Part shown: piece after piece, positions 15,423 to 45,248 of the stretch | Position numbering within the stretch: the stretch's first letter is position 1 | How the letters are laid out: every line of letters starts with the position of its first letter | Source of the DNA: Caldilineaceae bacterium | GTDB lineage: Bacteria; Chloroflexota; Anaerolineae; Caldilineales; Caldilineaceae | Direction of reading: 5' to 3' | Assembly: GCA_019637685.1 (NCBI GenBank) | Contig: JAHBVF010000001.1 | Location: 186,001-250,000 of the forward strand | Length of the DNA stretch: 64,000 nt | Program-made: the position numbers and the translations under genes | Notes under the pieces: model-generated | Database searches by the model: none | Told to the model about the DNA's origin: nothing | What the model saw: the letters and a program-made list of their open reading frames with translations, nothing else

Positions 15423-15662
15423 CGTGTGCTCCAATTCGTGTGTGGTTCTGTCGGAAGATGTGCGTCCTGTTCGGCGTGGCAGACGGGCTTGTACGCACCT
15501 TCGCAGTAAAGCACGCGCTGGCTTGGCTGTCAAACCCTACAGGACTCAGATCGGCGGCAGGCCGGGATATTGTGATATACTGGGGCCAAGCGTGGGGAGA
15601 ATTTTCCGTGAGCAACTATTCATACTTCATCCGCATCCCCGCTTTCATTGTGGCCTACTGGG

Positions 15663-19970: not shown

Positions 19971-20089
19971 AAAATTCATAGGCGTATTTGCGCTGTCCTG
20001 TACTAGCGTCTTATGAAGACGGATGAACGCTGATAAAGACGGGTTTGGGCGGATACTATTCGGCTCAATTGCGTCCTGTGACAAACGGA

Positions 20090-21431: not shown

Positions 21432-22499
21432 TTATAGCTGCCCCAACGGTTCTTTGTGCTTCATCTGTTCGGCCTCTACCATCTCGTCAATAATCCGTTC
21501 CAGGGGGTATTGCAGACGCCAGTCCGGGAAGTGGGAGCGGAATTTTCCCATATCGGTGAAGTAGCAGATGTGGTCGCCCACCCGGTTTTGCGGGTCATAG
21601 CGCCATTGGATAGACCTGCCGGCCCGTTCCTGGATCAGCGCGATACACTCCAGAATGGATGCGCTGTTGGAGCGTCCGCCGCCCAGATTGTAGACTTCGC
21701 CGGGCCTGGGCGCGTTGGCAAAAGCGTCCAGCGCCCGGATCACATCCTGGCTGTGGATCTGGTCCCGCACCTGCTTGCCTTTGTAGCCAAAGATCGTATA
21801 CTCTTTCCCCGTCATCGCCACGTGGACCAGATAGGACAGAAAGCCGTGGAGCTGCACCCCCGAATGGGCAGATCCGGTCAGGCAGCCCCCCCGAAAGACT
21901 CCCACCTTCAGCCCAAAATAGCGGCCATATTCCTGGGCCATCACATCCGCGGCCACTTTGGACGCGCCAAAGAGCGAATGCAGGGATTGATCGATGCGGC
22001 AATGTTCGTCAATGCCTTCGTAGTCTTCTGCCCGGGCAAAGTCGTAGCGCGTCTCCCGTTCGTCCAAGGGCAGTTCATTGGGCGCATCGCCGTAGACTTT
22101 GTTGGTGCTCAGCAGCAGGAAAGGGGCTTCCGGTGCATGGAGCCGGGTTGCCTCGAGCAGATTCATTGTCCCCATGGCATTGACTTCAAAATCGAGGATC
22201 GGGATTTCTTTGGCTTTGTCGTGGGAGGGCTGGGCCGCGCAGTGGATGACCAGATCGATGGCGTGGCGCTGAAACAGCCCATACATCGCTTCCCGATCGC
22301 GAATGTCCAGGTCAAAATGGGTGAATCGTCGGGTGTTCTTGCGAAGCCGGTTGAGATTCCAGGTGGTATCGCCCATTTGCCCAAAAAACACCTTGCGGAA
22401 ATTATTGTCAATGCCCAGGACGGTGTGGCCCTGGCGCTCGTAATGGAGTACAGCCTCCGAGCCGATCAGCCCGCTGCTGCCTGTCACCAAAACATTCAT
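21432..22499 (-). CDS. NAD-dependent epimerase of the CDP-paratose 2-epimerase-like group
   Basis: The 355-residue extended SDR has GSSGLIGSE at residues 7-15, LLLSTNKVYGDAPNELP (residues 128-144) and FGASKVAADVMAQEYGRYFG around K181. The TNKVYGD motif is typical of CDP-paratose/tyvelose epimerase relatives. The catalytic tyrosine position holds F177 (FGASK in place of YGxSK). I recall whole subfamilies with this phenylalanine, so it may be normal, but classical SDR chemistry would be altered. It ends 19 bases from the convergent lipoprotein gene. A perfect 11-base inverted repeat (22532-22574) lies upstream of its start. Confidence 0.82.
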   Translation of the reverse strand: MNVLVTGSSGLIGSEAVLHYERQGHTVLGIDNNFRKVFFGQMGDTTWNLNRLRKNTRRFTHFDLDIRDREAMYGLFQRHAIDLVIHCAAQPSHDKAKEIPILDFEVNAMGTMNLLEATRLHAPEAPFLLLSTNKVYGDAPNELPLDERETRYDFARAEDYEGIDEHCRIDQSLHSLFGASKVAADVMAQEYGRYFGLKVGVFRGGCLTGSAHSGVQLHGFLSYLVHVAMTGKEYTIFGYKGKQVRDQIHSQDVIRALDAFANAPRPGEVYNLGGGRSNSASILECIALIQERAGRSIQWRYDPQNRVGDHICYFTDMGKFRSHFPDWRLQYPLERIIDEMVEAEQMKHKEPLGQL

Positions 22500-22531
22500 A
22501 TCAATTCGTTCCCATTGTCTGCGGCTGCCAG

Positions 22532-22574
22532 CCGAATATGCCTACCCTACTGTAGCGTAGAATGGCATATTCGG
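22532..22574. other. inverted repeat upstream of the epimerase gene
   Basis: CCGAATATGCC (22532-22542) and GGCATATTCGG (22564-22574) are perfect complements, with a smaller CTAC/GTAG pair inside. This could be an operator or a leader hairpin of the 21432 gene. Confidence 0.5.
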
Positions 22575-22582
22575 GAATAAAT

Positions 22583-22619
22583 GAAAGTGTTTGGTCCGGG
22601 TTGCAGACCAAACACTTTC
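22583..22619 (-). terminator. hairpin terminator of the beta-propeller lipoprotein gene
   Basis: Perfect 14-base arms (GAAAGTGTTTGGTC and complement) enclose a 9-base loop just downstream of the stop of the 22655 gene. The T-tract is only moderate (ATTTATT on the minus strand). Confidence 0.75.
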
Positions 22620-22654
22620 TTCCCTCTACATTCGTCTGTGGATGTTCCCGTGCG

Positions 22655-23869
22655 CTATGGGTTGATCCACTGGGGATCGACGTCATCCGCAGGATTGTTG
22701 ATGAGCAACTGCTTGTCGCTGCCATCCCGATTGACAACAAAGATGTCGAAATTTCCTTCTTCATTGCTGTCAAAATAGAGTTGGCTGCCATCGGGCGACC
22801 AGATGTAGTTGTTTTCCCGTGCTGCGGGACTGTTGGAAATGTTCACCAATTCTTGAGAGGCCAAGTCCAGCACATACACATCCATGCCGTTGTCCCGATC
22901 CGACTGAAAGGCAACCATCGAGCCATCGGGCGACCAGACCGGATTCATATCGGCAGCGGGATTATTTGTCAGGTTTTTCAGGTTTGTCCCCTCCGGGCTG
23001 ACTGTATAAATCTCCAAATTCTCATCCCGGATGGTCTCGAAAAGGATTGACTTGCCATCGGGCGACCAACTGGCATTGCTCTCTACGACGAGATCTGTCC
23101 CCAGAGTCATACCGCTCAGATTTCTACGCTCGGACCCGTCTGGATTCATCAGCCAGATATTCGAGATACCTGCCGCGTCGGATAAGAACATAATCTGCTG
23201 TCCATCCGGCGACCACTGGGGCGATACTTCTCGCGTGCGGATATTGGTGAGATTCGCCCAACCCGCGCCGCCGAGCCGGGATGTGCAGATGTCGAGATCG
23301 TTCTGCACGCAGACAAATGCGAAATCTTCCGAGTTGGGGGCAACCGATGCCGCCCCTTCGTCAATCGGGTCTGCGGTAATGGGTGCAATGAGCGCACCAG
23401 AAAAATCGTGCAGATAGAGATCGGACTGTTGAAGGCTATCTACCCGTTGTAGCACGAAGGCATGCAATTCTGGCAGCCAGAAGGCATTTCGCACGGTGTA
23501 TCCTGGAATTTCTTGAAAGGGAGCAAAGGTCTGTGTATTCTGCTCCAGATCGTAGAGATACCAGCCGGGTTTGCTTTCATTGGATGAATAAAACAGAAGA
23601 TAAGGCCGATCCGGTTTGGCGTATTGCCGCGTATTGAGTGCAGGCAAGGGGGTGCTGACCGGTGAAGAAAGAGGTGATTGCATACTCTGAGATGGTGCTG
23701 GTGTATCGACAGTCTGCGCAGAGACGGCTGGCACAGAGACAGTCTCTGCTGGCGTCGGTTCCTGGGTTGGCAGAACCACAACTGTCGGTTCTTCGTCACC
23801 CCCGCAGCCACCCAGCACCAGCAGCGCCAAGAGTAGGGTATATACCAGACCTTTACGAATGAGTTCCAT
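22655..23869 (-). CDS. TolB-like beta-propeller lipoprotein (PD40 repeats)
   Basis: From ATG at 23867-23869, with AGGAG 7 bases upstream, the protein has 404 residues. The signal peptide LLLALLVLGGCGGDEE ends in a lipobox. A Thr/Pro/Ser-rich linker leads into about six WD40-like PD40 blades with the motifs SPQWSPDGQQIMFLSDAAG, ASWSPDGKSILFET, NPVWSPDGSMVAFQSDRD and YIWSPDGSQLYFDSN. Such propellers bind other proteins or glycans on the outside of the membrane. There is no tolA/tolQ context, so this is not a classical Tol system. It stands as a single gene with its own terminator. Confidence 0.85.
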   Translation of the reverse strand: MELIRKGLVYTLLLALLVLGGCGGDEEPTVVVLPTQEPTPAETVSVPAVSAQTVDTPAPSQSMQSPLSSPVSTPLPALNTRQYAKPDRPYLLFYSSNESKPGWYLYDLEQNTQTFAPFQEIPGYTVRNAFWLPELHAFVLQRVDSLQQSDLYLHDFSGALIAPITADPIDEGAASVAPNSEDFAFVCVQNDLDICTSRLGGAGWANLTNIRTREVSPQWSPDGQQIMFLSDAAGISNIWLMNPDGSERRNLSGMTLGTDLVVESNASWSPDGKSILFETIRDENLEIYTVSPEGTNLKNLTNNPAADMNPVWSPDGSMVAFQSDRDNGMDVYVLDLASQELVNISNSPAARENNYIWSPDGSQLYFDSNEEGNFDIFVVNRDGSDKQLLINNPADDVDPQWINP

Positions 23870-24009
23870 ATCGCGCTCCTCACGAAAATTGTTTTCAGTC
23901 CCCAAAGATGGACAGGCCGCTATTGGCTGCGGGCAAATTCTGTACTTCAGAGAGTGTACTTCAGACTGAACAACTCCCCAAAGTTAACAAACCACGCTGG
24001 GTCTGTGAC

Positions 24010-24047
24010 GGAATAAGACCACCAGGATTTCCTGGTGGTCTTATTCC
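24010..24047 (-). terminator. 17-base perfect hairpin after the repeat surface protein gene
   Basis: GGAATAAGACCACCAGG pairs perfectly with its complement across a 4-base loop. It lies about 85 bases past the stop of the 24133 gene. No clear T-run follows, so it may stabilise the mRNA end as much as terminate. Confidence 0.65.
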
Positions 24048-24132
24048 AGATCGTCTATTTGTCGGTCCTGACCAGAGATAACAGAGCGGTTAGATATCTA
24101 CATGTGCTCTCTTGCCAGTCCTGTTTCTAGTC

Positions 24133-25671
24133 CTATTGTACGTTGAATGCGTTGAAGGAGTACAGCGAATCGCGGGTGGCTGCCTGAGGAGCCGAATTGC
24201 TCTCCGAGTTGACGAAAGCCACGATGTTGGAGCCGCTGACAACTTCGATCACAGCCGAACCAATGAATCGCCCTGTGCCACCAGACTTCCACGCCGCATC
24301 GTCCAGAATGTCGCTCTGGGCTGCTGTGGCGGGAGGACCCTCATAGCGGTTCAGCACGCCATTTGTGGTGGACATGGTGTATTCCTTTGATGTATTCTTC
24401 ACCGAAGAGAAGGTGCCATCAGAGGTGTATTTGATCTTCACTGTGGCGTCCGTGCCATCCACCGTAGCGATGGTCAGGGATGTGTAGTAGCCATAGAAGT
24501 CAGACTGAATCAGAGGAACGCTGATCTTCTTCGTGCCTTCGGTCGAGGAAGCACCATTGTATGCACCAGCCTGGTTGCCAGCCGCGGCAGTAGCTTCCTG
24601 GTTCACAACTGCCACTACAGGAACGCTGTTGGTGGACTCGATCTTCACACTGCCAAAGAAGCGATTGGTGGTTCCATTGGGGTAAGCGGCCGACAGGTCG
24701 GATGCACCAGTGCCTGGACCATCATAGATGGTGATGGACTTGCCAGCGGGAACCGTATGATTGGCTGTGATGGCAGCAGTCGGGTTGGAGCCTGCCGCAG
24801 GTGTATAGGTCAGCTTGACTGTGGCATCGGTAGCGCCAGGATTGGCAATGGTCAGGCTGGCGTAGTAGTTGTACCAGTTGCGCAGGTAGGCGGGAAAGAT
24901 TACTGTCGTGCCGCCGGTGTTGGAGAAACCATTGTAGGTGAAGAGCTTGTCCTGCACATACTGATTGACAACCACGGCAATGTCGCCGCCCGTGGACTTG
25001 ACAGTCGCCGCGCCCAGGAATTTGCCGTTGAATGCCGCACAGCTACCGGTCAGGCCGGTCGCAGCAATGGATGTCAATGTCTTTTGGGAGACAGACTTGG
25101 CTGTGCTGGCGGGCAGAGTGCCCACTGCATTGCCAGAGGTGGCGGTTCCGGTCGTGCAGCCGTTCAGAGAGGTGGGTTTGTAATCAATGGTCACAGTCGC
25201 GGCCGTGCCACTCACGTTCTGAATGAAGAGTTCGGTGTGATAGCCAAACCATTCGTGCATAACAATGGGAATCGTCACTTCTTTGGAGCCGCTGCTGATG
25301 GCACCATAGGAACTGAACGGAGCAGTGGAATTACCGCTGCCTGTCTCACCCAACTGCTGGTTCACGATAGCAGCCAGAGGCTCGCTCGCGCTCAACACAG
25401 CCGAAAATTGGCCGGAAGGCAGACCGGATTCCAGCGCCTGCTGGACAGTCACCACACCATTGGCGGGTACATTGGTGAAGGTATTGGTGAAGGCTTTTGT
25501 ACCATCGCTCTTGTAATAATCGGCCTGGATCGTCGTCGGATTCGTGCCCAGGTTGACGACCTGATAGCTGGTGATGGTGGCTTTTTCGTAGGTGATCTGG
25601 GCACCCGCCACTGTCGTAATCAACAGTGCCAGGATAATCGAGAAGATCACAACTGACTTTCGTGCTTTCAT
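24133..25671 (-). CDS. secreted repeat-containing surface protein (possible S-layer type)
   Basis: From ATG at 25669-25671, with GGAGA upstream, the product has 512 residues and a signal peptide (VVIFSIILALLITTVAGAQ). The mature part consists of four related units of about 110-120 residues. Each has a Y/W-rich strand, then an ATVTI/ATVKI strand, for example WFGYHTELFIQNVSG, WYNYYASLTIANPGATDATV and FYGYYTSLTIATVDGTDATV. Each unit also contains a VAVVNQ-type strand (AAIVNQQLG, VVVNQYVQ, VAVVNQEA, VAFVNSES). It is rich in Thr, Ala, Gly and Asn, and its base composition is lower in GC than its neighbours. It has its own promoter and hairpin. An abundant envelope protein is plausible; the family is not recognised. 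Confidence 0.65.
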   Translation of the reverse strand: MKARKSVVIFSIILALLITTVAGAQITYEKATITSYQVVNLGTNPTTIQADYYKSDGTKAFTNTFTNVPANGVVTVQQALESGLPSGQFSAVLSASEPLAAIVNQQLGETGSGNSTAPFSSYGAISSGSKEVTIPIVMHEWFGYHTELFIQNVSGTAATVTIDYKPTSLNGCTTGTATSGNAVGTLPASTAKSVSQKTLTSIAATGLTGSCAAFNGKFLGAATVKSTGGDIAVVVNQYVQDKLFTYNGFSNTGGTTVIFPAYLRNWYNYYASLTIANPGATDATVKLTYTPAAGSNPTAAITANHTVPAGKSITIYDGPGTGASDLSAAYPNGTTNRFFGSVKIESTNSVPVVAVVNQEATAAAGNQAGAYNGASSTEGTKKISVPLIQSDFYGYYTSLTIATVDGTDATVKIKYTSDGTFSSVKNTSKEYTMSTTNGVLNRYEGPPATAAQSDILDDAAWKSGGTGRFIGSAVIEVVSGSNIVAFVNSESNSAPQAATRDSLYSFNAFNVQ

Positions 25672-25768
25672 AGACTTGTCTCCGATCAAATAATGGATGG
25701 ATTCACACGACACAACATAACACTTCCAACAAGCTTTTCAGGCAGTCTGCTCGGTTGGTCTGGTTGCA

Positions 25769-25796
25769 AGTATAGCAAACACAACTCAATAAGCAA
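25769..25796 (-). promoter_or_regulatory. candidate promoter of the repeat surface protein gene
   Basis: On the minus strand TTGCTT (plus 25791-25796) and TATACT (plus 25769-25774) are 16 bases apart in an AT-rich stretch, giving a leader of about 90 bases. It lies directly after the terminator of the upstream operon. Confidence 0.5.
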
Positions 25797-25820
25797 TACT
25801 TATTTCGAGTAAAATTTTGC

Positions 25821-25857
25821 AAAAACCCCATACCCCGAATGGGGTAGTAGGGGGTTA
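25821..25857 (-). terminator. intrinsic terminator of the glycan operon
   Basis: On the minus strand a C-rich/G-rich stem (ACCCCATTCGGGGT core, extended by flanking C and G runs) is followed by TTTTT. It overlaps the stop codon of the 25855 gene. Confidence 0.7.
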
Positions 25858-26829
25858 TTTCTCCTGTGAGGCGGGGTTTTGTGCGTTCTGACCAGCAATA
25901 TTTCTTGACCGACCCGAAATTGCCAGAACCAACAGCGCCCAGCCAACTTCGTCCAATGTGTGGAGCAATCGATAGGCCAGGCTGAACAGAATCGCGACGG
26001 ATGTGGGCATCCAGGGCAACAGCAGAGCGCTCATGGAAACTTCTTTTAATCCGAAGCCAACCGGTAAGATCAGGTTCAGTAAGGAAACCAGTGTGGACAA
26101 TGTGGAGATAGCCAACGCATCGCCCAATGTGAGCCGCACGCTGTCGGTGACACCGCGCACGCCAAAGTAGAGGGAGGCACCGGCCAGCAGCCAGGGCAAG
26201 GCATAGAGACTTGTCCACAGCAGAAAGTCTCTGGCTGTGGGCGAGTGTTCCAACTCTGCCAGATTCAGCCGACGCAACAGGCGATTGCCCAGATTGCGCA
26301 GCGCGTCAAAGCGCAGAGCAATCCCAGTCAACAGGGCCAGGGCAATGGCGGCCAATGAATAGGCCACATAGGCTGGCATCTCCCCGGTATACAGATTCCA
26401 GAAGATGACCAGCACGAAGCCGCCCGCAATGCCTAGCAGTAGATTTTCCAGCAGAATACTGTTGAGGACAACGGCAGACGAGACACCCACCTGGCGGTAA
26501 AGAACCAGGCGGCCACTGATATAGGGGATGCTGCTGGGGATGCGTTTGGCCAGAGTAGAGACATAATAGATGCGCAAGTTGGCCCACGGATCATTGAAGC
26601 CGCTGAAACGGTCGATGAGCAGATGCCATACCCAATAGGTGACCAGCAATGCCAGGGAATGAAAGGCTGAGGCCAAAAGGAGGGAAGGCCAATGAATCTG
26701 CCACGGAAACTGGAGAATCATTTGCCGGTTTTTGATGACCAGCCAGGCCATTAGCCCAATGACACCCAGCGGTACAAGCGTATAGATGACTTTGGCAATG
26801 AGGGGGCTTTTCAGCCAGGCGCCCTTCAC
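25855..26829 (-). CDS. lysylphosphatidylglycerol-synthase-TM-like / flippase-like membrane protein
   Basis: The product has about 324 residues with 8 or so membrane segments. It begins with a KVIYTLVPLGVIGLMAWLV segment and carries RIPSSIPYISGRLVLYRQVG, a polar loop typical of the LPG_synthase_TM (UPF0104) group. The C-terminal half has LNLILPVGFGLKEVSM. Members include lipid flippases such as the MprF N-domain. The start is chosen as GTG at 26827-26829, because it overlaps the upstream stop by 4 bases (GTGA); the ORF extends to a TTG at 26871. As the last gene of the glycan operon it might move a lipid-linked intermediate. Confidence 0.75.
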   Translation of the reverse strand: MKGAWLKSPLIAKVIYTLVPLGVIGLMAWLVIKNRQMILQFPWQIHWPSLLLASAFHSLALLVTYWVWHLLIDRFSGFNDPWANLRIYYVSTLAKRIPSSIPYISGRLVLYRQVGVSSAVVLNSILLENLLLGIAGGFVLVIFWNLYTGEMPAYVAYSLAAIALALLTGIALRFDALRNLGNRLLRRLNLAELEHSPTARDFLLWTSLYALPWLLAGASLYFGVRGVTDSVRLTLGDALAISTLSTLVSLLNLILPVGFGLKEVSMSALLLPWMPTSVAILFSLAYRLLHTLDEVGWALLVLAISGRSRNIAGQNAQNPASQEK

Positions 26830-27740
26830 GGCGTTGTTGTCTGCTGGCGCGGGGGATGGCCCAGCACCCAACTCATTTTGGTGGTCACCAATTCACGTGC
26901 CACGGGTGTCCACGCCAACTTACGCAGAAACCCCAGAATTTGGCTGTGGAAAGGACCGGACCGGGCAAAATAGTGATAGCCCAACGGCAGCATTTCCTGT
27001 CGAAGGACGCGCAGGTCCAGGGCATCCAGCAGATGGGCAAATTGTTGGGCCGTGACCCGGTTCAGTTCCGGCAGACGGTTCAACTCGCTCCACTTCACCT
27101 GGGCTGTCGGAATATAGGCTGTGTTGCGACGCTGCTCCTCTTCGATCCGACGTGCGGCTTCGATGAGCGTCTGATCGGAAAAGAAGACGTGGGGCCAGGG
27201 AAAGTTGATCCAGCCTTCCAAATGCGCACCCCAGGGGCTGTAAAAGGGGGGAAAGTGAAAGAGCATCACCCCACCGGGCCGCAAAACCCGCTTGCATTCC
27301 CGCAGGGTAAAGTAGAGGTCGTCCACGTGTTCCAGCACATTGACCGAAACGATCACATCGAAACTCGCATCGGCAAAGGCCATCGCCGCAGCATCAGACA
27401 GGCAGAAACGGACTTTTGCCGGGTCGGGATTGTGCTGACGATTTTCCTCGTCCGCGGCCCGCAGGCTGTGGCTGCGCAGGTCCAGCCCGGTGACACTGGC
27501 CGCGCCCATCTGCGCGTAGGCCACTGTCTTCCCACCCAGACCGCAGCCCAAATCCAGCACATCTTTCCTCGCAAAATCCCAAAAGGGACCGAAGCTCTCG
27601 GCAACGCGGGTCAACTCCTGGCGTTCCCACGCCTGATACCCGTCTACACTCCCCTTGGCCTGGTGGATTTCCTTCAGGTTGGGCGAGACTGGGAAGAGGC
27701 TGTTGATTGCCAGCAATAGTTCGACTGCCAGTGGATTCAT
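26826..27740 (-). CDS. class I SAM-dependent methyltransferase (operon copy 3)
   Basis: The 304-residue protein has VLDLGCGLGGKTVAYAQMGA as motif I, TGLDLRSHSLRAA, the FDVIVSVNVLEHVDD motif and VLRPGGVMLFHFPPFY. The VNVLEH(V) sequence is typical of small-molecule and sugar methyltransferases rather than rRNA enzymes. The C-terminal 120 residues are an extra helical region (KWSELNRLPELN and so on). Its start codon overlaps the preceding stop by one base, and its stop overlaps the flippase-like gene by four. A role in O-methylating a glycan or lipid head group is inferred. Confidence 0.82.
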   Translation of the reverse strand: MNPLAVELLLAINSLFPVSPNLKEIHQAKGSVDGYQAWERQELTRVAESFGPFWDFARKDVLDLGCGLGGKTVAYAQMGAASVTGLDLRSHSLRAADEENRQHNPDPAKVRFCLSDAAAMAFADASFDVIVSVNVLEHVDDLYFTLRECKRVLRPGGVMLFHFPPFYSPWGAHLEGWINFPWPHVFFSDQTLIEAARRIEEEQRRNTAYIPTAQVKWSELNRLPELNRVTAQQFAHLLDALDLRVLRQEMLPLGYHYFARSGPFHSQILGFLRKLAWTPVARELVTTKMSWVLGHPPRQQTTTP

Positions 27741-28507
27741 CAGGCCCGCTCCCCGTGCCCGTCATGGCTGCCTTCCGACAAAAAGGGCGTGCAGATAAAG
27801 ATGAATGTGTAGGTCAGATTGAAAGGGATCCAGCGATTGCCAAAGAGGCGGAAGAGGGTGTTGTACGCATACCAGAAAAGCTCGCGGCCGGGGCGGTAGA
27901 TGCGGGCCATGCCTGTGTCATATTTATGCACGGTTTCTACCCGCAGCCCGTTCTGGCTGAAGAGACGCTCCCATTCCCTGCGTGTAGCGAAGCGTTCGTA
28001 GTCCTGCAAATCCGACAGAATCTCGCCGTATTTGAATACATTGTAGATGGCTCGAATGTGATGGGAGTTGGGGACCAGAATGGCCGCGCGCCCCCCCGGC
28101 TTCAGCAGCCGAGCCACCTCGCGCACAGAGCAGGCCGGGTCCAGAAAGTGTTCCAGACTGCCCAGAATCGAGATGTGATCGAAAGTTTGATCGGGCCAGG
28201 GCAGGTCCTCTGCCGCAGCCAGGAAAACCCGGTTACGCAGGCCATAGACCTCCACCGCCTGGCCCAGCGCCACCGCCGAGATGTCCACCCCCACCGCGTC
28301 CAGCCCCCGATCCAGCGCCGCCCGCACGGTGTGGCCTGTGCCACAGCCCATGTCCAGCAGACTTTCGCCGGGGCGGATGTGCAGATAATCCAGCATCTTT
28401 TCGGCCTGGTCATCGTTTATGTGCTGGCCCATCCACTCGCCATAAAGTCGATCGTAGGAGTTTTGCAGATCCGAAAGGCTGGTGGGGACGGCTTGCAATT
28501 GGTTCAT
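27740..28507 (-). CDS. class I SAM-dependent methyltransferase (operon copy 2)
   Basis: The 255-residue protein carries LLDMGCGTGHTVRAALDRG (motif I), AVGVDISAVALGQA, ISILGSLEHFLDPA and LKPGGRAAILVPN. A final hydrophobic stretch near residues 220-245 (FNLTYTFIFICTPFL) suggests membrane association, in line with a lipid-linked substrate. It sits 6 bases after the preceding methyltransferase and overlaps the following one by one base, so all three are translated together. Confidence 0.82.
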   Translation of the reverse strand: MNQLQAVPTSLSDLQNSYDRLYGEWMGQHINDDQAEKMLDYLHIRPGESLLDMGCGTGHTVRAALDRGLDAVGVDISAVALGQAVEVYGLRNRVFLAAAEDLPWPDQTFDHISILGSLEHFLDPACSVREVARLLKPGGRAAILVPNSHHIRAIYNVFKYGEILSDLQDYERFATRREWERLFSQNGLRVETVHKYDTGMARIYRPGRELFWYAYNTLFRLFGNRWIPFNLTYTFIFICTPFLSEGSHDGHGERA

Positions 28508-28513
28508 AGGGTT

Positions 28514-29368
28514 TCACAGTTGGGCAGGAATAGGCTGTGGGCCTGAATCATCGACAGGGCGGCGGGCCAGTAGCACCATTGAATTTCCAAATACCTGATG
28601 CTGGCAGGCATCCCAATAGCCCAAGGCCAGGGCCAGGGGAAGCGTTGCCAATGCGGAAAGATTGCGCAGCCAGCGGTTACGCCAGAAAAGATTGTTCAGC
28701 TCAAAGGAGAGTTCGCCCCAGTAGCCAAAGCCGTAGCCAAAGCGTTGGATCTCCAAACCAGCCTCCTCTACCCGCACCACAATCTCTTCCGGCAGATACT
28801 CGTCCCGCACGTGATCGCTGACTGTGTGGCCGCGGAAAGCCGGAAATATCCGCTGTTGCACCTGATGGCGCAGGGGGACGTGTACGGCCAGGTAGCCGCC
28901 GGGCTTCAGCGCAGTGGCAAAGGCCCGCAGCGCGGCCCGATCGTCGGGCAGATGCTCCAGTACGTCGATGGCAATCAGCAGATCGTATGTGGCTTGGCCG
29001 GGCAGATCGTAGGGCGTTCCCGGGCGAAAACGCAGATGGGCAAACCCTCTGGCCTGGCTGGCCCGCTGACAGCCCGCGATCTGGCCCGCGTCCGTATCGA
29101 TCCCCTCCAGGCGCATGCTTGGGAAATGTTCGGCCAGCCAGAAGAGCGTATACCCGTGGCCGCAGCCCACATCCAGCGCACGCATCCCCGTCAGATCAAT
29201 GCCGGCCAACGTGTGGATCAGCCGGGCATTGCGGATGCGGGCGTGGGTTCCCAGCGGGCCGAAGCGGCGAAAAAAGAGCACGGCCAACGCATTGGCCTGG
29301 CCGTAGGATTGATGGGAGCCAAGACGCACAAAGTCCTGGAAGGAAATGGGCGCTGCAATTTGATTCAT
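28514..29368 (-). CDS. class I SAM-dependent methyltransferase (operon copy 1)
   Basis: From ATG at 29366-29368 the protein has 284 residues and overlaps the upstream GT2 stop by 4 bases (ATGA); the longer reading to 29521 lies inside that gene. Motifs are MRALDVGCGHGYTLFWLAEH, LEGIDTDAGQIAGCQ, DLLIAIDVLEHLPDD and LKPGGYLAVHVPLRH. The C-terminus is hydrophobic (LATLPLALALGYWD), again suggesting a membrane-proximal enzyme. The three methyltransferases are not close copies of each other, so they probably act on different positions or substrates. Confidence 0.82.
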   Translation of the reverse strand: MNQIAAPISFQDFVRLGSHQSYGQANALAVLFFRRFGPLGTHARIRNARLIHTLAGIDLTGMRALDVGCGHGYTLFWLAEHFPSMRLEGIDTDAGQIAGCQRASQARGFAHLRFRPGTPYDLPGQATYDLLIAIDVLEHLPDDRAALRAFATALKPGGYLAVHVPLRHQVQQRIFPAFRGHTVSDHVRDEYLPEEIVVRVEEAGLEIQRFGYGFGYWGELSFELNNLFWRNRWLRNLSALATLPLALALGYWDACQHQVFGNSMVLLARRPVDDSGPQPIPAQL

Positions 29369-30204
29369 AATTCTGCCCGGGACGCATCCCGGATCCCCCG
29401 CAGTTTGGCAAAGGCCATTCGGAAATCCAACTTCACCAGCTCCCAGTCCCGGCGCACAAGGAGATCCGGGGCTGTGTCTCGCCAGGCCAGGCGGCGCACT
29501 GTGCCCGCGGCCAGTGTCCACGGGTTGCGGCCATTCTTGCGTTTGACCACAAAAGCCCAGTAGTACCAGCGGTAGATCGTCTTTTCCATAGAGGCCAGAT
29601 CGTCCTGGCGCTGGTGATAGACAATTGCATCCGGGCGGTAGACCAGCCGATAGCCCGCGTCGTTCAGCCGATAGCCCACGTCCATATCTTCCGCGTTCGT
29701 GCGCAAATTCGTGTCAAATCCATTCACTGCGCGCAGCGCGCCTACCCGATAGGACATATTCAGACCGAAAAGATGGGGCGCTTTGCGTAGCGGTTGGCTG
29801 CCGTGCCCCTGAGTAGCGTGGAGTTGACGCCAGCGATCGACTTTGCTCTGAATGTTCGATTCGATACCCGGCCCCCCCGCGCCCGAAACGCCCGGCTCGC
29901 CATAGCTTTCCAGCAGTGTTCCCAGCCAGGCCGGGTCAGCGCTGGCGTCCACATCCACAAAGGCCAGCACATCCCCCTCTGTTTCGGCAACTGCTCTGTT
30001 GCGCACAGCCGAAAGTCCCTGATTGGTGGGGAGAGAGATGGTACGCACGGGATAACGGGCTGCAATCGAGGCGCTGTCGTCGGTGGAGCCGTCGTCCACC
30101 ACCAGCACTTTGTCGGCGGGCCGCTGCTGGGCAAGCACCGATCGAATCGTTTTGTCCAAATATTGTGCCCCATTATAGCAGGGAATCGCTACTGTCACGT
30201 GCAT
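29365..30204 (-). CDS. GT2-family glycosyltransferase
   Basis: The start is ATG at 30202-30204, giving 279 residues; the frame stays open upstream but lacks family features there. Visible motifs are VTVAIPCYNGAQYLDKTIRS, VLVVDDGSTDDSA, GLSAVRNRAVAETEGDVLAFVDVDASADPAW (the DxD metal site is DVDA) and LFGLNMSYRVGALRAVNGFD. NAEDMDVGYRL supplies the E-D acceptor motif. It is a GT-A fold inverting transferase using a nucleotide sugar. It is coupled to the following methyltransferase by a 4-base overlap. Confidence 0.85.
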   Translation of the reverse strand: MHVTVAIPCYNGAQYLDKTIRSVLAQQRPADKVLVVDDGSTDDSASIAARYPVRTISLPTNQGLSAVRNRAVAETEGDVLAFVDVDASADPAWLGTLLESYGEPGVSGAGGPGIESNIQSKVDRWRQLHATQGHGSQPLRKAPHLFGLNMSYRVGALRAVNGFDTNLRTNAEDMDVGYRLNDAGYRLVYRPDAIVYHQRQDDLASMEKTIYRWYYWAFVVKRKNGRNPWTLAAGTVRRLAWRDTAPDLLVRRDWELVKLDFRMAFAKLRGIRDASRAEL

Positions 30205-30265
30205 CTGGGCAGAACTCTCACTGAAAAACCGAATGATCCAAAGAAGTATAGCACGCAGCCGGGGA

Positions 30266-31156
30266 TCACGCGATTTTTTGCCGCCGCAGCGTATGGGCAG
30301 AACCCGCACACCAGGCCAGTTTGCTGAGCCAAATTCCCGGTGCTGCCTGCCAAACCCGGTGAGACCGGAGGGAGCGCGCCGTTGCCAGAGAGGCAAAGAG
30401 CGGGGAGAGGAGCAGCATCTGCCACCAGCGCCGGGGCAGCAGAGCTTCCGGTCCTGTGCGCGGCTGCCGCTTGCCCCCTGGGCGGCCAATCTTCGGCGAA
30501 TATTGGCCGTAGCGGTAACCGTGCCGCCACAGCGCGCGGGGGGATGTGCGCCGATCCATGTGGGTCACCCGTGCGTTGGGCTGGAAGTGCAGATCGTAAC
30601 CCGCGCTCCGCATTCGCTCTGTCCACTCTGTGTCTTCGCCCGCGGCCAGGGGATAGCGTGTGGACATTCCGCCCACGCTTTCATAAACCCCCCGCCGGAT
30701 GCTCAGATTAAGCGAGGGCAGGTGGGGGCGCAGACCGGACGGAGAAGATGACAAAAATTGATAGAACCAACTCAAGTTATCGCACAGAGACCAGTAGTTG
30801 GCCCTGTCAAAGATAACGCCACCGCCCACCACAGACACCTGTGGACTGGCATAGGGCGCGGTAATCTGTTCCAGCCAGTCGGGTGCAGGCACGCAGTCGG
30901 CATCGGTGAAGCAGAAGATGTCGCCCTTGGCCGCGGCCATTCCCCGGTTGCGATTCTCGGCCGCGCTGGCTCGCCCGCCTTCCGCAAGGAGACGCACCCG
31001 GTCGCCGGTCTGCACCAGCCCGGCTTCATCCACGCCCACGACCAAAATTTCCAGGTGGGCCGGATTCAGGCTTTGGGCACGGAGGGCCGCCAGTGTGCGG
31101 TCAATCAGTGGCGAGTTGAGGGTGGGGACGATCACAGAAATCAGCGGGGAAGTCAT
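30266..31156 (-). CDS. GT2-family glycosyltransferase
   Basis: The 296-residue protein starts LISVIVPTLNSPLIDRTLA and has SAAENRNRGMAAAKGDIFCF, FTDADCVPAPDW (the DxD site), LNLSIRRGVYESVGGM and AAGEDTEWTERMRSAGY (E-D motif). It lies 3 bases after the GT4 gene and 61 bases before the next GT2 gene. The C-terminal 60 residues are basic, with one hydrophobic stretch. It probably adds a sugar to a lipid-linked glycan; donor and acceptor are unknown. Confidence 0.84.
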   Translation of the reverse strand: MTSPLISVIVPTLNSPLIDRTLAALRAQSLNPAHLEILVVGVDEAGLVQTGDRVRLLAEGGRASAAENRNRGMAAAKGDIFCFTDADCVPAPDWLEQITAPYASPQVSVVGGGVIFDRANYWSLCDNLSWFYQFLSSSPSGLRPHLPSLNLSIRRGVYESVGGMSTRYPLAAGEDTEWTERMRSAGYDLHFQPNARVTHMDRRTSPRALWRHGYRYGQYSPKIGRPGGKRQPRTGPEALLPRRWWQMLLLSPLFASLATARSLRSHRVWQAAPGIWLSKLAWCAGSAHTLRRQKIA

Positions 31157-31159
31157 CGT

Positions 31160-32308
31160 TTACGGCCTGCGCAGCCTTTCCAGAATGGACCGGGCGCGCT
31201 TTCCCACTGGCCCCAATCCGTATCCCTGGCGAAAGAGCGCGTTCCCCTGTTCTGCCATCTCTTGCCGCAGGCGCGGATCGCCGTGCAGGGCGCGAATCGC
31301 TTCAACCAGCGCCCCGGGGCTTTGCCGTTTGCAAAAGTAGAGATGCTCTTTGTGGCGAAAATTCTCCATCACCGCTGGCCCTTCGCCCGTCAACACCGGC
31401 TTCCCCATTGCCATACATTCGTAGATTTTGTTCTGCACTGTCATCAGCGATTGGGGTGTTGTGCCAAAAACCCCCAGGCAGATATCCGCGTCGGCAATGT
31501 GCTGGCGCACTTCTTCGGGCTGTAACCAGCCGATGAATGTCACATTTGTCAGATTCTTCTCCGCGGCCAGGGCCGCGGCCGCGGGTCGATCCGGCCCATC
31601 ACCAATCAGCACAAAGTGGAGGGATGGATCATCCGCCAATAGCACAGCAGCTTCTATAATTGTCTGCACTCCGTGATTGGGAATGAATGTGCCGTAGTAA
31701 AGAACTGTGAAGCGGTCAGATTTGTTGGCGGAAGGGGGGGCTGGGTAGAAGAGCCTGTCGTCTGCGCCGGTGGGCACAAGGCCAAAACGAGACGCGGCCA
31801 CGCCGTGGGTTTTCTCGAACCAGGCGGCATAGGCCGCGGTGTCCATAATCAAATGGTCGGGCAACCGGCAGGCCAGCCATTCCAGCCGGCGCAGCAGACC
31901 CACACCCAGCCGGCTCTTTTTGTCCAGCCCCCGTTCCAGGGCGATGAGATAGATGGACATAAAGATGTCCCAGGCCAGGGGCTTGCCATCCAGCCAAGTG
32001 AGCAGCCGGGCCAGAAAAACGTCCAACTGGCCGGGATAGCCCACCACCAGCACATCGTAGCTCCCGCGCACCTGCCAATAGCGCCGGATGAGCCGGGCAT
32101 AGACCGTTGCCACCCGCCACCAGAAACCCGGATGTTTCCAGCCGCTCTCTACGGTTTCCACCCGGTCTTCGATCCCGCCCCAAAGCTGTTCGTGACACTC
32201 GATGACCTGGACGCCGTTGCGCCGCAGCCCCTCCATCAGAATGCGGTTGCGCGAGTATTCAGATCGATAGGTTCCAAAGTAGCAGACCCGCAAAGTGGCA
32301 CCGGTCAT
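31160..32308 (-). CDS. GT4-family glycosyltransferase
   Basis: The 382-residue GT-B enzyme starts LRVCYFGTYRSEYSRNRIL. It carries FTVLYYGTFIPNHGVQTIIEA, HFVLIGDGPDR, NVTFIGWLQPEEVRQHIADADICLGVF and NKIYECMAMGKPVLTGEGPA in the C-terminal donor-binding half. This is a retaining transferase of the family 4/1 type and appears complete, in contrast to the truncated one at 10666. Its start overlaps the stop of the aminotransferase gene by 4 bases (ATGA). Confidence 0.85.
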   Translation of the reverse strand: MTGATLRVCYFGTYRSEYSRNRILMEGLRRNGVQVIECHEQLWGGIEDRVETVESGWKHPGFWWRVATVYARLIRRYWQVRGSYDVLVVGYPGQLDVFLARLLTWLDGKPLAWDIFMSIYLIALERGLDKKSRLGVGLLRRLEWLACRLPDHLIMDTAAYAAWFEKTHGVAASRFGLVPTGADDRLFYPAPPSANKSDRFTVLYYGTFIPNHGVQTIIEAAVLLADDPSLHFVLIGDGPDRPAAAALAAEKNLTNVTFIGWLQPEEVRQHIADADICLGVFGTTPQSLMTVQNKIYECMAMGKPVLTGEGPAVMENFRHKEHLYFCKRQSPGALVEAIRALHGDPRLRQEMAEQGNALFRQGYGLGPVGKRARSILERLRRP

Positions 32309-33165
32309 GGATTTTCGCAGTAGCTACGACCGGTTGCCGCAGCAAAATAGGTCTCAAAGCGGCGAGAGAGCGTGTGGGTAATCGGGCCGGGTGTGCCATC
32401 GCCAAGTACCGCGCCATCCAGCCGCACCAGAGGCAGAATGTGGCGGCTGGTGCTGGTGAGAAAGGCTTCGTCCCACTGCTGGCATTGGGTCAGGGGCAAA
32501 GCCACCCGACGCACAGGGATGCCCGCTTCTTCGGCCAGACGCAGCACAATCTGCAATGTCACACCCTCCAGAATATCTTCTGCGGGGGGAATGAGCAACT
32601 GACCATTCTGGACCGCGTAGAAGGTGCTGCTGGCCCCTTCCCGCACGTGACCGGTCTTGTCGATCAGCAGCCCTTCGTGTGCTCCCGCGGCCTGGGCCGC
32701 GCGCCGGGCCAGGGTATTGACCAGTGTGTTGAGCGACTTCACTGTGGGCAGCGCGCGTTCGCCCCCATAGCTGACCGCGCCCACGCCCTCCCGGTTCATC
32801 TGGGCGGTGGGTGGGTGCAGGGCTTCCAGCCAAATGAAGCTGCGGGGTGGCGTGCCCGCGTCCGGCCCTACAGAAAAGAGACGAATGGTGGCGTCGGGTG
32901 GGCTGCCTTCTGCCCGGATCAACTGATGGACCCACCCCCTGTGCGCGGCCAAATCCCCGGCCAATGGCAGCTCAATTGCCCGGGCCGAGGCCAGCAACCG
33001 TTCTAAATGATCGTCCAGATGGAAGACGACGCCATTCCAAAGCTGGATGCTCTCGTAGACGCCGAACGCGCCGTAGAGTGTGCTGCCCAACACAGAAATC
33101 GTCGCGGTCGGGGGCGGAATCACCTCGCCATTGCAAACTACAAAGCTGGGGGATAGGCTACTCAT
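32305..33165 (-). CDS. class IV PLP aminotransferase (branched-chain / D-alanine / ADC-lyase type)
   Basis: From ATG at 33163-33165 the protein has 286 residues. Family hallmarks are GAFGVYESIQLWNGVVFHLDDHLERL, the lysine-bearing TVKSLNTLVNTLARRAA (K is the PLP lysine), EGLLIDKTGHVREGASSTFYAV and LEGVTLQIVLRLAEEAGI. The C-terminal EAFLTSTSRHILPLVRLDG matches the family. The exact reaction (branched-chain amino acid, D-alanine or aminodeoxychorismate lyase) cannot be told from sequence alone. As the first gene of the glycan operon it may supply an amino compound for the glycan or may be a housekeeping neighbour. The ribosome site is weak. Confidence 0.82.
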   Translation of the reverse strand: MSSLSPSFVVCNGEVIPPPTATISVLGSTLYGAFGVYESIQLWNGVVFHLDDHLERLLASARAIELPLAGDLAAHRGWVHQLIRAEGSPPDATIRLFSVGPDAGTPPRSFIWLEALHPPTAQMNREGVGAVSYGGERALPTVKSLNTLVNTLARRAAQAAGAHEGLLIDKTGHVREGASSTFYAVQNGQLLIPPAEDILEGVTLQIVLRLAEEAGIPVRRVALPLTQCQQWDEAFLTSTSRHILPLVRLDGAVLGDGTPGPITHTLSRRFETYFAAATGRSYCENP

Positions 33166-33265: not shown

Positions 33266-34612
33266 TCACACCTGCGCGGCTATCTCTTCGGGCGTGCCCG
33301 TCAGCCGCCGCACTTTTACTCCCTGGGTTGAGAGGTAGATCAGCTGAAATTCGGGGATGACGTTCCCGTCCCCAATCACAGTGACCTGTTCCGCGTTGGC
33401 CGCCTCCTGATAGTCGAAGCCAAAGCCCAGTCCTTTTTCGGCCAAATGGGGCAGCAGCGCGGCCATCTGCTGCCGGACCGCGGGCGTGTCCTGCGCGGAA
33501 AAGAGTACGTAATGCGCCAGGGGCGAGCCGCTGCTGGCCGGGGCTGCGGCTGCTTCTTCGGGAGCCGACACTTCGTTGGGTTTTTCGGCCGCGGGCGCGG
33601 GAATGCGCAGATCGACTGTGCGCCGGTTCTTGCCGTCCATTTCCAGTGTGGGAGAGATCACCAGCGGTTCGGTCTGGCCGGGCCGCAACACCTGCACGTG
33701 ATAGCTGCCCGCGGTCAGGTTGCGCAGACGAAAAGCCCCGCTCTGTCCTAGGGGACCCTCGGCCAAAATTTCGCCGTCCTTCACCAGCCGCAAAATCAGA
33801 CCGCCGCCGTCCGGCACTGTGCCTTCCAGCACACTGCCGCTGGCTGCCAGTGTCAGTGTCACCTGTGCCACCCCATTTGTCTGCACCTGCACAGGGACGC
33901 TCTGTTCGCCCAGGCGCACGGAATAGTCGCCCGGCTCTACAGCCGGGAAAACAAATGTGCCATCCCCCGCCACCGGCGCGGAGGCTGTCACCGCGCCCGC
34001 CTGCACCAGTTCCACTGTCAGGCCCTCGTGGCTGTTTTCCACCCGGCCCTCAATCGTCCCGGTTGTCACCGGCTGGGGCGCGGTCACTTCGTGGAAAATG
34101 ACCAAAAACGAGTGATGGAAAAGGGTGTTGCCGCTTTGGGTTCCATCGGGGTTTGGTTCGTCCGGGTGGCTGCTGCTGATGCCGTGGACTTTGTCACTGG
34201 GCATTCCCTGCATTTCGACCGTACACTTCTGCCACTTAAACATTGGAAAATTGGCTGCGGGTTCGTTCAGCGGTTTGTCCAATGTGGCGGTATGTTCGCC
34301 CCCTTCCCAGGTGATGTGGGCCTGGGTGTTGAAGGCGCGTGTGCCATCTGCCTTCACCGCATCAATATAAATGTGGTGGCGTCCGTTGTTCTCCTGGGGG
34401 CTGAGGTGGTGGACCCGCGTTGCCCGCCAGTAGCGGGAGCCGGGCATAACCTCGGCAGTTTCCACTGTCACGCCATAGGGTTCTGCGTTCGTCTCCAGGG
34501 CCAGCAGCCCGCTTCCATCCGCGTTGCGAATGGGGCTGCGGTCACCCATAGATGGATTTTCGCCCCCCTCTTCTCCGGTCAGCCAGCGTACAAATCGGTC
34601 CATAGAACTCAT
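33266..34612 (-). CDS. carboxypeptidase-regulatory-like repeat protein with shared C-terminal module
   Basis: The 448-residue protein has no signal peptide. Residues about 30-180 form a domain with YWRATRVHHLSPQENNGRHH, FPMFKWQKCTVEMQGMPSDK and HHSFLVIFHEV. It is followed by two carboxypeptidase-regulatory-like beta units (GTIEGRVENSHEGLTVEL, FVFPAVEPGDYSVRLG; FRLRNLTAGSYHVQVLRPGQ). The last 85 residues (AHYVLFSAQDTP..GFGFDYQEAANAEQVTVIG in outline) match the end of the 34612 protein. The gene overlaps that one by one base (TAATG), so both are made together. Function unknown; carbohydrate or wall binding is a guess. Confidence 0.65.
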   Translation of the reverse strand: MSSMDRFVRWLTGEEGGENPSMGDRSPIRNADGSGLLALETNAEPYGVTVETAEVMPGSRYWRATRVHHLSPQENNGRHHIYIDAVKADGTRAFNTQAHITWEGGEHTATLDKPLNEPAANFPMFKWQKCTVEMQGMPSDKVHGISSSHPDEPNPDGTQSGNTLFHHSFLVIFHEVTAPQPVTTGTIEGRVENSHEGLTVELVQAGAVTASAPVAGDGTFVFPAVEPGDYSVRLGEQSVPVQVQTNGVAQVTLTLAASGSVLEGTVPDGGGLILRLVKDGEILAEGPLGQSGAFRLRNLTAGSYHVQVLRPGQTEPLVISPTLEMDGKNRRTVDLRIPAPAAEKPNEVSAPEEAAAAPASSGSPLAHYVLFSAQDTPAVRQQMAALLPHLAEKGLGFGFDYQEAANAEQVTVIGDGNVIPEFQLIYLSTQGVKVRRLTGTPEEIAAQV

Positions 34613-37600
34613 TACAGCGCCTCCAATTCCTGGCGAATCCTGTCCAGATCGTCCGACACCCGTTGCACGGGAATACGGGCCGCGGCCAGGTTCTGGATGA
34701 CCTGGGACGAAACCGGGCCGACAATTGTCACCTGTTCGGCCTTTGTGACAACGTCGCGATCGAAGCCGACAGTTGCTTTGGTGCGGAAGATGAAGTCCTG
34801 GGCCGCGGTCAGCCGTTGGGCTGTGGCCGCGGGATTGCTGTTGTCCAGCAGAAGATAGTGGCGCAGGGGCTTTGTAGCCGGGGCTGGTTGGCCGGTTGTT
34901 GGCTTGTCAGTGGATGGCTGGCCGGCGTCTGGCCGGGATGGGCGCACAGACGGTGCTGTCTGGGGGCGCGGCGCGGACAGACGCACGTCGCGTTCCACAT
35001 CCGCTACGCCGTCCAGGCGGATGGCTGAGGCCACAATGCCCTGCCCCTCCAATTCGATGGAGTAGGAAGCCGCGGCCAGCCCGGCAAAGCGATAACGCCC
35101 GTCGTCGTCGGTCTGGGTTTCGGCCACCCGGCGGCCAGGCGTGCGCAAAAAGACAAGACGACCGCCAGCCGGTTCGTCCGTATGGGTAGTGATCTGTCCG
35201 CTGAGTACGCTCTGCTCGCCCTGCTCCCGGTCGAAAACAGGCCCGTTGCTGGCGCTTTGCCCATCGCAATGGGCTTTCTGCGCGGGCAGATCGCTGGCCT
35301 CCAGTGTCAGGATGCAGACGTCCGCGGGCAGCCCGGTCAGGCGATAGATGCCGTCCGGCCCGGTGGTGGCCTGTTTGCGAATACTGTATTCCTGGCAGGT
35401 CAGGCTGACTTTCTCCCCGGCTTTGGCGGGCAGCACTTGTCCGTTGATCTGCCCCTGCATGGGAAATTCGATGCTGATTTCGTCGATCCCGCTCAGGACC
35501 AGCTCCTCGGCAATCATTCCCACGCCTTCCAGGCTGAGCTGATAGACACCCGCGGCCAGCCCGTCAAAGCGGAAGGCCCGCTGCTGGTCAAGCCGCTGGG
35601 CTTTGGGATCGCCGCCCCCGCCGCTGAGTGTCACCGCGCCGTTGAGCGGTCCGCCGGGAATGCGTCCGGCAATGCTGCTGCGGGCCGCGGGCTGGGCCGT
35701 GGAGAGGAGCTGGAAGGTGACTTCGTAGGTGATGGGGCGGCTGTGCTGGGGCATATCCGCTGTGATCAGGTTGTCGGCCACTTCGCTTTCGTGGGCAGGG
35801 TCCATCACTTCCACCGCAAAGACGCCGGGGGTGTGGATGAAGGAGAAATAGCCCCTGGGCTTGAAAGGGTCCTGGCCGCTCTTGACAGTGGGGAAATTGG
35901 TCTCAGGCGCTGCGCCGGTCCAGCGCATACGAATAATCTTGCCATCCAGAGGCTTTCCCTCCGCGTCCAATACCTGCCCCTGGATTTTGTTCTCGTTGCC
36001 CGTCTCCTGGGGAGAAAGCAACTTTTTGCTCGTCACCTGATAGCGCAGTTTGGCGGCCTGGGGCACAGAGAGATTCTGCTCCTCGTTTTCCCAGCCGTCG
36101 ATGTCGATTCCCCGGCGCTCGGTGGCCTGTTCGGTTCCAGGGGCCACGTGCAGGGCATAGATGCCCGCAGTCAGGTCGCCGAATTCATAGCTGCCCCCCG
36201 CATCCACCTTCGTCTGCGCCACCAGTCGATTAGGATTGGTCTGGTGCAGGCTGACGGCCAGGCCGGGCTGAATGGCGCCCGTGGGATCGGTCACTTTGCC
36301 GCGCAGGGTGCTGCGTTGGCCTGTCTGCGCGGCCAGGTCTAAATGTTCGGTCTCGCCGTCAGCCAGTGTCACCTGGCCCAGCACTGTGTCAAAGAGGAGC
36401 AGCTGGTAGCTGTCTGCGGGCACCTGCTCCAGACTGATGTGCCCTTCCCCGTCGGTGGTGGCAGGGATGCGACGCCGAAAACTTCCGCTGCCGACTGTTG
36501 TGGATTCCAGCGCGACGGGGATATTGGGCAGAGGCTGGCCGTTGTCTCCCCGCACAATTGTGGCGGTCAGGCTGGCTGTGCCCCGGCGCAATTCGGGGCG
36601 CACCACCGGGGGGAGTTCTTTCAGCGCCTGGACGATTGGGAGGCGACCGGCCAGGCCGAAGCGCTCGTTCCAGGCGTCCGTATACCAGCTCATCTGTTCC
36701 CAGGTGGGGTTGAAATCGCCCAGGGCACGGCTGGCCAGCAGCCAGGTGCAGCACGAGAAATACCATTCCGGCGCGCTCTCCTGCAGAAAACGGGTGATGC
36801 CGATCTGCATTTCGGCCTGCTGGTCCGGGGTGATTTTGTTGTAGCGCAGGTCATCGCCCCAGCCCACCACTGGCCCGCCTTCGGTGCTGATGACCGGCAG
36901 GTGACGGCCCAGTGTATGGAACATCAACTGTCCGGCCCATTCCCAGCCCCGGAAGCAGGCCGCGTCCTCGGCCAATGTTTGGCCGGGGTTTTTGTCCCTG
37001 GCCCGGCGGGCGTTGATCATTTCCATAGAGCGGTGATCCCACGACCAGGCCGGGTGACGTTCAAACTCTTCTCTGGTCAGGGGTTGGCCCATCTGGTTCA
37101 CCGGGTCGTCGGGATAGTCCAGCGGGTGGTTGAGGGTGTAGTTGTGGATGGCAAGCCAACAGCCTTTTTCGAAGAGATCGCCCCGGCCCTGCTGCATAAC
37201 CCGCTCTATGGCATTGTCACGGCCACCAGGACCCATCGCGGGCACGGCTATCAGGCCGCCTTCGCCGGTTACAATATCCGCGTCGTAGATGAAATTGTCC
37301 ACGACAATATCCAGCCAGTTGTCGGGCTTGTGATTCTTCTCCCACTCCGCGGGCAGGTCCGGCTCGTTGTTGGTTTCCATATAGCGCACGCCCGCGGCTA
37401 CCAGCTTGCGCACGCCGCTCACCTCTCGACCACCGATTCGGCCAGGGTTGGGCCGTTCCCGAAAGAGGCGCACCACCGGCATCATTCCCGCGTCGAGCAG
37501 GCGGCGGCAGAGTTCCAGCGAAGAGCCGTCGCCGTCGTCCAGCACTTTGATCCATTTCATGTGCATGGCGGTCAATTCGGAAATCCAGAAATCCAAATCA

Positions 37601-37686
37601 GAGCCGCTGGGATGATATATCCGGGCTGACCAGTGAACGCCCCGCCCGTTGTCATCGGGTGGTCGGGGGTAGTCGGATAGTTGCAT
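34612..37686 (-). CDS. glycoside-hydrolase-like TIM-barrel protein with carboxypeptidase-regulatory repeats
   Basis: The start is ATG at 37684-37686 with AGGAG 7-8 bases before it, giving 1024 residues and no signal peptide. Residues 15-360 look like a clan GH-A barrel: W45-IKVLDDGDG, MPVVRLF, YMETNNEPDLPAEW with E108 in the acid/base position, WLAIHNYTLNHPLDYPD, and PVISTEGGPVVGW with E269 in the nucleophile position. Five to six carboxypeptidase-regulatory-like units follow (NIPVALESTTVGSG, LAVSLHQTNPNRL, GPLNGAVTLSGGGG, GGRLVFLRTPGRRV). A Thr/Pro-rich linker leads to an 80-residue C-terminal module shared with the 33266 protein. Substrate and location are unknown. Confidence 0.65.
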   Translation of the reverse strand: MQLSDYPRPPDDNGRGVHWSARIYHPSGSDLDFWISELTAMHMKWIKVLDDGDGSSLELCRRLLDAGMMPVVRLFRERPNPGRIGGREVSGVRKLVAAGVRYMETNNEPDLPAEWEKNHKPDNWLDIVVDNFIYDADIVTGEGGLIAVPAMGPGGRDNAIERVMQQGRGDLFEKGCWLAIHNYTLNHPLDYPDDPVNQMGQPLTREEFERHPAWSWDHRSMEMINARRARDKNPGQTLAEDAACFRGWEWAGQLMFHTLGRHLPVISTEGGPVVGWGDDLRYNKITPDQQAEMQIGITRFLQESAPEWYFSCCTWLLASRALGDFNPTWEQMSWYTDAWNERFGLAGRLPIVQALKELPPVVRPELRRGTASLTATIVRGDNGQPLPNIPVALESTTVGSGSFRRRIPATTDGEGHISLEQVPADSYQLLLFDTVLGQVTLADGETEHLDLAAQTGQRSTLRGKVTDPTGAIQPGLAVSLHQTNPNRLVAQTKVDAGGSYEFGDLTAGIYALHVAPGTEQATERRGIDIDGWENEEQNLSVPQAAKLRYQVTSKKLLSPQETGNENKIQGQVLDAEGKPLDGKIIRMRWTGAAPETNFPTVKSGQDPFKPRGYFSFIHTPGVFAVEVMDPAHESEVADNLITADMPQHSRPITYEVTFQLLSTAQPAARSSIAGRIPGGPLNGAVTLSGGGGDPKAQRLDQQRAFRFDGLAAGVYQLSLEGVGMIAEELVLSGIDEISIEFPMQGQINGQVLPAKAGEKVSLTCQEYSIRKQATTGPDGIYRLTGLPADVCILTLEASDLPAQKAHCDGQSASNGPVFDREQGEQSVLSGQITTHTDEPAGGRLVFLRTPGRRVAETQTDDDGRYRFAGLAAASYSIELEGQGIVASAIRLDGVADVERDVRLSAPRPQTAPSVRPSRPDAGQPSTDKPTTGQPAPATKPLRHYLLLDNSNPAATAQRLTAAQDFIFRTKATVGFDRDVVTKAEQVTIVGPVSSQVIQNLAAARIPVQRVSDDLDRIRQELEAL

Positions 37687-45236: not shown

Positions 45237-45248
45237 GGAGGGATAGGG

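Follow-up and report, generated by a model that had tools for sequence, protein, structure and literature searches.

In a Caldilineaceae bacterium (Chloroflexota), a gene cluster probably directs the synthesis of a cell-surface sugar chain that carries methyl groups. We read it, with a probability of about 0.5, as a polymorphic surface-glycan locus for an O-methylated, lipid-linked oligosaccharide that would be flipped by the integral membrane protein H and would have the secreted protein X as partner and possible acceptor. In the proposed pathway, the glycosyltransferases B, C and D, together with an initiating enzyme encoded outside the operon, would assemble a short polyprenyl-linked oligosaccharide, the sugars of which would be methylated by E, F and G. 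H would then flip the finished lipid-linked glycan, taking the role of the Wzx/MOP flippase of sister genomes, and the glycan would be displayed outside, possibly attached to X. Both the components and the logic are known from other surface-glycan or glycoprotein loci, and a possible new pathway, as implied by a preliminary description of this DNA, is hence too strong a term. That description also overlooked the secreted protein X beside H, as well as the polymorphic nature of the locus as a site of cassette replacement.

Genes of the locus

The window, that is, the whole stretch of 64,000 nucleotides analysed, contains the operon A to H and its neighbours as follows.

33266-38073, minus strand: W_up1 and W_up2, conserved flank genes with CarboxypepD_reg domains
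32305-33165, minus strand: A, class IV aminotransferase (Pfam Aminotran_4, 2.9e-43)
31160-32308, minus strand: B, GT4 glycosyltransferase, with which the variable glycan cassette begins (Pfam Glyco_trans_1_4, 4.5e-20)
30266-31156, minus strand: C, GT2 glycosyltransferase (Pfam Glycos_transf_2, 1.8e-16)
29365-30204, minus strand: D, GT2 glycosyltransferase, ATG at 30204 (Pfam Glycos_transf_2, 5.8e-31)
28514-29368, minus strand: E, class I SAM methyltransferase (Pfam Methyltransf_23, 1.1e-21)
27740-28507, minus strand: F, class I SAM methyltransferase of an H-linked subfamily (Pfam Methyltransf_11, 4.1e-20)
26826-27740, minus strand: G, class I SAM methyltransferase (Pfam Methyltransf_11, 8.9e-25)
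25855-26829, minus strand: H, integral membrane protein with a GTG start, divergent relative of LPG_synthase_TM (PF03706), proposed flippase
25831-25846, minus strand: terminator-like hairpin 3' of H (consensus scan only)
24133-25671, minus strand: X, secreted four-repeat beta protein, candidate surface glycoprotein, conserved neighbour of H
21432-22499, minus strand: Z, NAD-dependent epimerase/dehydratase, conserved far flank (82% identical in G001, 71% in G005)

The eight genes are co-directional at the coordinates given in the preliminary description, and its overlaps and short gaps were recovered: the spacings from A to H are -4, 3, 61, -4, 6, -1 and -4 bases, hence between -4 and +6 except for the single gap of 61 bases between the two GT2 genes C and D. 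Pfam agrees with its class IV aminotransferase, GT4, two GT2 and three SAM methyltransferases, the matches of the latter being spread over Methyltransf_11, Methyltransf_23 and Methyltransf_25. H is separated from X by 183 bases; the hairpin in this interval comes from a scan that overall barely exceeds shuffled sequence (21 sites versus 15.1, sd 4.3). The G+C content over H, X and Y (22000-27000) is 53-55%, compared with 60% window-wide. That the genes form a glycan operon stands insofar as they are co-directional, probably co-transcribed and include three methyltransferases, but the aminotransferase A is not a member of the pathway (see below).

E, F and G are predicted to O-methylate sugars. 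The solved structures nearest to the three methyltransferases are mixed, and those of F include a D-glucose O-methyltransferase (6uv6). The hydrophobic C-termini previously ascribed to two of these enzymes are weak: the best 19-residue segments within the last 100 residues reach hydropathies of 1.32 (E), 1.21 (F) and 0.73 (G), values under the usual transmembrane threshold, and a function of the tails as membrane anchors was rejected on this ground.

The operon itself contains no initiating transferase, polymerase, ligase or oligosaccharyltransferase. A WecA/MraY-like polyprenyl-phosphate sugar-1-phosphate transferase, which falls below its NCBIfam cut-off, is encoded at 44145-45278 with a GT4 close by at 47440-48591; although unlinked to the operon, it is possibly the glycan initiator. 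Elsewhere in the window, 39140-43942 encodes a giant protein of surface type that matches SdrD_B six times, and beyond Z lie genes for a large, weakly PMT/Agl23-like membrane protein (15648-18584), a DegT aminotransferase (18597-19880) and a Big_13-like protein (20045-21412). Relatives of these last three genes follow a different H clade at four other loci (L045, L048, L051 and L052). With regard to an oligosaccharyltransferase, besides the PMT-like protein of the window, PMT_2 genes are found near X in G062 and G192.

Glycan cassettes and their flanks

The preliminary description had proposed gene order in Chloroflexota as a check, and the order is indeed kept in some genomes. In the one close relative that carries the operon (G001), all eight genes together with X, Y and Z occur in the same order with 72-90% identity. 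In G192, which belongs to another family of the same class, a single contig carries a GT4, a GT2, an inserted epimerase, a second GT2, E, G, H and X, and the identities of the core B-C-D-E-G-H-X range from 31% to 57% (31% for H, 38% for X). Since G001 retains the full order with 72-85% identity and G192 the core order, the eight-gene arrangement is not due to chance. Among the single genes, B is 72-78% identical in G001, G004 and G005 and 57% in G192, C 70-76% in G005 and G001 and 45% in G192, and D 71-77% in G005 and G001 and 50% in G192; for the methyltransferases E and G, the identities are 85% and 81% in G001 and 46% and 45% in G192. The unit is thus real, yet its spread is patchy, as G is present in only one of 120 sampled genomes of the family of G192, and this patchiness suggests horizontal transfer. 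G192 possesses three separate H-X cassettes (L147, L148 and L149, on contigs C125, C119 and C17), which differ in their glycosyltransferases and methyltransferases.

The aminotransferase A behaves differently from the genes that follow it. It is 77-79% identical in five congeners (G001, G003, G004, G005 and G006) and 57-67% identical in other genera, in several genomes of which it adjoins W_up1/W_up2 with neither B-H nor other glycan genes. A role of A as a pathway gene was rejected because it is conserved where the rest of the cassette is absent; instead, A, which overlaps B by 4 bases, belongs to the conserved flank next to which the glycan cassettes lie. What stands beside this flank varies. 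At the G005 locus, A-B-C-D are followed, in this order, by two phosphodiesterases, a flippase of the Polysacc_synt (Wzx) type, a GT4, an X of another type and Z; here B, C and D are 70-74%, X 25% and Z 71% identical to their counterparts in the window, while E, F, G and H are absent. At the G004 locus, which likewise lacks E, A-B are followed by a Polysacc_synt (Wzx) protein, a pyruvyltransferase and a GT4, and the loci of G006 and G003 carry other glycosyltransferases. Because the cassette content differs between congeners beside the same flank, we regard this as a serotype-like polymorphic surface locus. An IS66 transposase gene adjoins Z in the G005 locus (L097, 5113-6642) and is a possible agent of cassette exchange.

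The membrane protein H and its partners

H has 324 residues and at least six hydrophobic segments, in keeping with the multi-spanning membrane domain of about 300 residues that characterises PF03706. Its earlier description as 'LPG-synthase-TM-like' holds through its homologues, but H by itself matches no Pfam or NCBIfam entry and misses the PF03706 cut-off. An hhalign comparison of a 20-homologue H alignment with four PF03706 proteins from this genome gave a probability of 99.4% over 270 columns, and 9 of the 20 H homologues match PF03706 directly, the best with 5.5e-22; the homologue at L093 scores 35.1 bits against a cut-off of 33.4. On account of the profile-profile probability and these nine matches, H is, by sequence comparison, assigned to the LPG_synthase_TM family as a divergent member. 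The H profile gave chance-level matches only against solved structures, and a structure predicted from a two-sequence alignment is all-helical with low confidence (pLDDT 43).

The preliminary description had noted the lack of a polymerase and of a classical Wzx flippase and proposed that the terminal membrane protein is the transporter. The two absences are confirmed: no Wzy polymerase or ligase was found in the operon or the scanned flanks, and no MOP-superfamily flippase is encoded among A-H, X, Y, Z or the scanned flanking genes. A MOP-type protein is present in three related loci that lack H, namely those of G005 and G004 (Polysacc_synt) and that of G022, where a MurJ-clan protein is encoded directly ahead of X. 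Conversely, none of the multi-spanning proteins checked at loci with both H and X is a MOP-type flippase. Together with the superfamily of H, this supports H as a candidate flippase of a non-classical family, situated at or near the position of Wzx in the sibling loci. We propose the flippase function of H mainly on the genomic ground that MOP flippases replace it at the same place in sister genomes, the independent H/Wzx replacements being few. Our literature search yielded no biochemical data on proteins of the H subfamily.

H is closely linked to X. The two genes lie within 5 kb of each other in 15 of the 17 relatives that have both (0.05 expected by chance) and in 14 of 17 such genomes in a phylum sample (0.13 expected), with Poisson-binomial p-values of about 1e-37 and 1e-29, respectively, which exclude chance only, as the genomes are not independent. 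With the profile-building genomes left out, the linkage is seen in 11 of 14, and with profile-level cases counted, about 31 genomes from 19 Chloroflexota families have the two genes side by side. These counts were taken from search tables and not from gene calls alone, a few of which are wrong (among them X in L096 and H in L152). The methyltransferase F shares this linkage: 16 genomes each have a single closest homologue of F (E <= 1e-22), which in 15 of them is encoded beside H, and the F subfamily has a common GSLEHF motif and a conserved C-terminal motif. In a tree of H, several branches of which are long, the X/F-linked sequences fall into two well-supported groups; a third clade stands apart from these and is linked to large GT-C-like proteins. 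That H represents a separate, phylum-wide class of lipid-linked-oligosaccharide flippases dedicated to X-modifying glycans, with methylation by F licensing the flipping, is a doubtful extension of these observations.

X combines a signal peptide with about four beta-rich repeats in tandem, the latter in a low-confidence model from a two-sequence alignment (pLDDT 45), and has no Pfam family of its own. Contacts with DUF5719 (4 of 16 X-family members) and a weak match of the X profile to the Anabaena sensory rhodopsin transducer (7.6e-4) are leads only. Its serine plus threonine content of 24%, compared with a median of 10%, may only reflect a secreted beta protein. X would be the partner of the glycan and possibly its acceptor, which makes it a candidate surface glycoprotein. 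It is not an obligate acceptor, since in genus g8 (L083-L087) X occurs without H or glycan genes, beside a prephenate dehydrogenase and a small lipoprotein-like gene. In G135 and G176, 11-12 matches to the X-type repeat domain were found per genome, many of them within very long open frames.

Known systems and alternative readings

The logic of the locus is that of surface-glycan loci and archaeal agl clusters, and its unusual traits are the flippase class and the linkage of F, H and X across the phylum, for neither of which a description was found in the literature searched. Full-text searches on LPG_synthase_TM flippases, UPF0104 in glycan clusters, Anaerolineae surface glycans and DUF5719 returned nothing on the locus. 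As in Wzx-dependent O-antigen and capsule loci, a variable cassette of glycosyltransferases and decorating enzymes with one flippase-like gene stands beside conserved flanks, and sibling cassettes encode true Polysacc_synt (Wzx) proteins. However, here an LPG_synthase_TM-type protein replaces the flippase, the operon lacks Wzy and the exchanged unit includes the secreted repeat protein X. In Haloferax, strain-variable agl clusters encode the methyltransferase AglP and the proposed flippases AglR and Agl15, and similar clusters accompany similar S-layer protein types (PMC3871713, PMC5867893). The variable glycan genes, the methyltransferase, the proposed flippase and the covariation of cluster and surface protein are thus shared with our locus, whereas the Haloferax system is archaeal and dolichol-based and uses the oligosaccharyltransferase AglB, a comparable enzyme to which was not identified here. 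A methyltransferase is also tied to a lipid-linked glycan in the case of WbdD, which terminally methylates the E. coli O9a O-antigen (PMC3482155); WbdD, however, is a kinase/methyltransferase of an ABC-transporter pathway, while F is a stand-alone, H-linked enzyme.

In the superfamily of H, MprF sets a precedent for the translocation of lipids, which favours H as a flippase. MprF flips lysyl-phosphatidylglycerol (lysyl-PG). Its flippase domain has been shown to translocate lipids (PMC8131360), and H belongs to the same membrane-domain superfamily, going by the Pfam family name. Sequence and Pfam place the end of H directly after the membrane domain, so that, in contrast to MprF, it has no C-terminal aminoacyl-PG synthase domain, and it is encoded among glycosyltransferases rather than aminoacyl-lipid enzymes. 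With a phospholipid flippase as the characterised relative, a methylated glycolipid could be envisaged: a membrane lipid would receive its sugars from B-D and its methyl groups from E-G and would be flipped by H, X being an independent surface protein encoded at the end of the locus. The absence of a polymerase, ligase and initiator from the operon and the occurrence of X away from glycan genes agree with this, but the strong phylum-wide H-X linkage, the switch of X type together with the glycan cassette (G005) and the Wzx-type flippases of the sibling loci, a family known for polyprenyl-linked glycans, make it rather unlikely.

A secreted or wall-bound polysaccharide made by a Wzx/Wzy-like route, with polymerase and ligase encoded elsewhere in the genome and X aiding assembly, export or anchoring, would account for the pyruvyltransferase and Wzx of the sibling G004, for the O-antigen ligase/Wzy_C protein encoded directly after X in G062 and for the large GT-C-like membrane proteins that recur near X. 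We consider this quite improbable, as the operon offers no Wzy or ligase candidate and neither a chain-length nor an outer export protein was found near it. H could also be an accessory protein that, for instance, associates in the membrane with the glycosyltransferases or with X, with a flippase encoded elsewhere carrying out the transport. PF03706 members are common, with six other matches in this genome, and the activity of the H subfamily is putative; yet H and MOP flippases substitute for each other at the locus, and we judge this the least probable of the alternatives.

The preferred reading, a polymorphic locus for a methylated, lipid-linked surface glycan, concerns a phylum whose surface glycans appear to be little described. 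If H is a flippase, it would represent an additional class of lipid-linked glycan transporter beyond the MOP and ABC families, and the sister genomes that carry Wzx in its place would provide a natural control. The F-H-X linkage further offers a handle on which protein carries the glycan and on whether export is gated by methylation.
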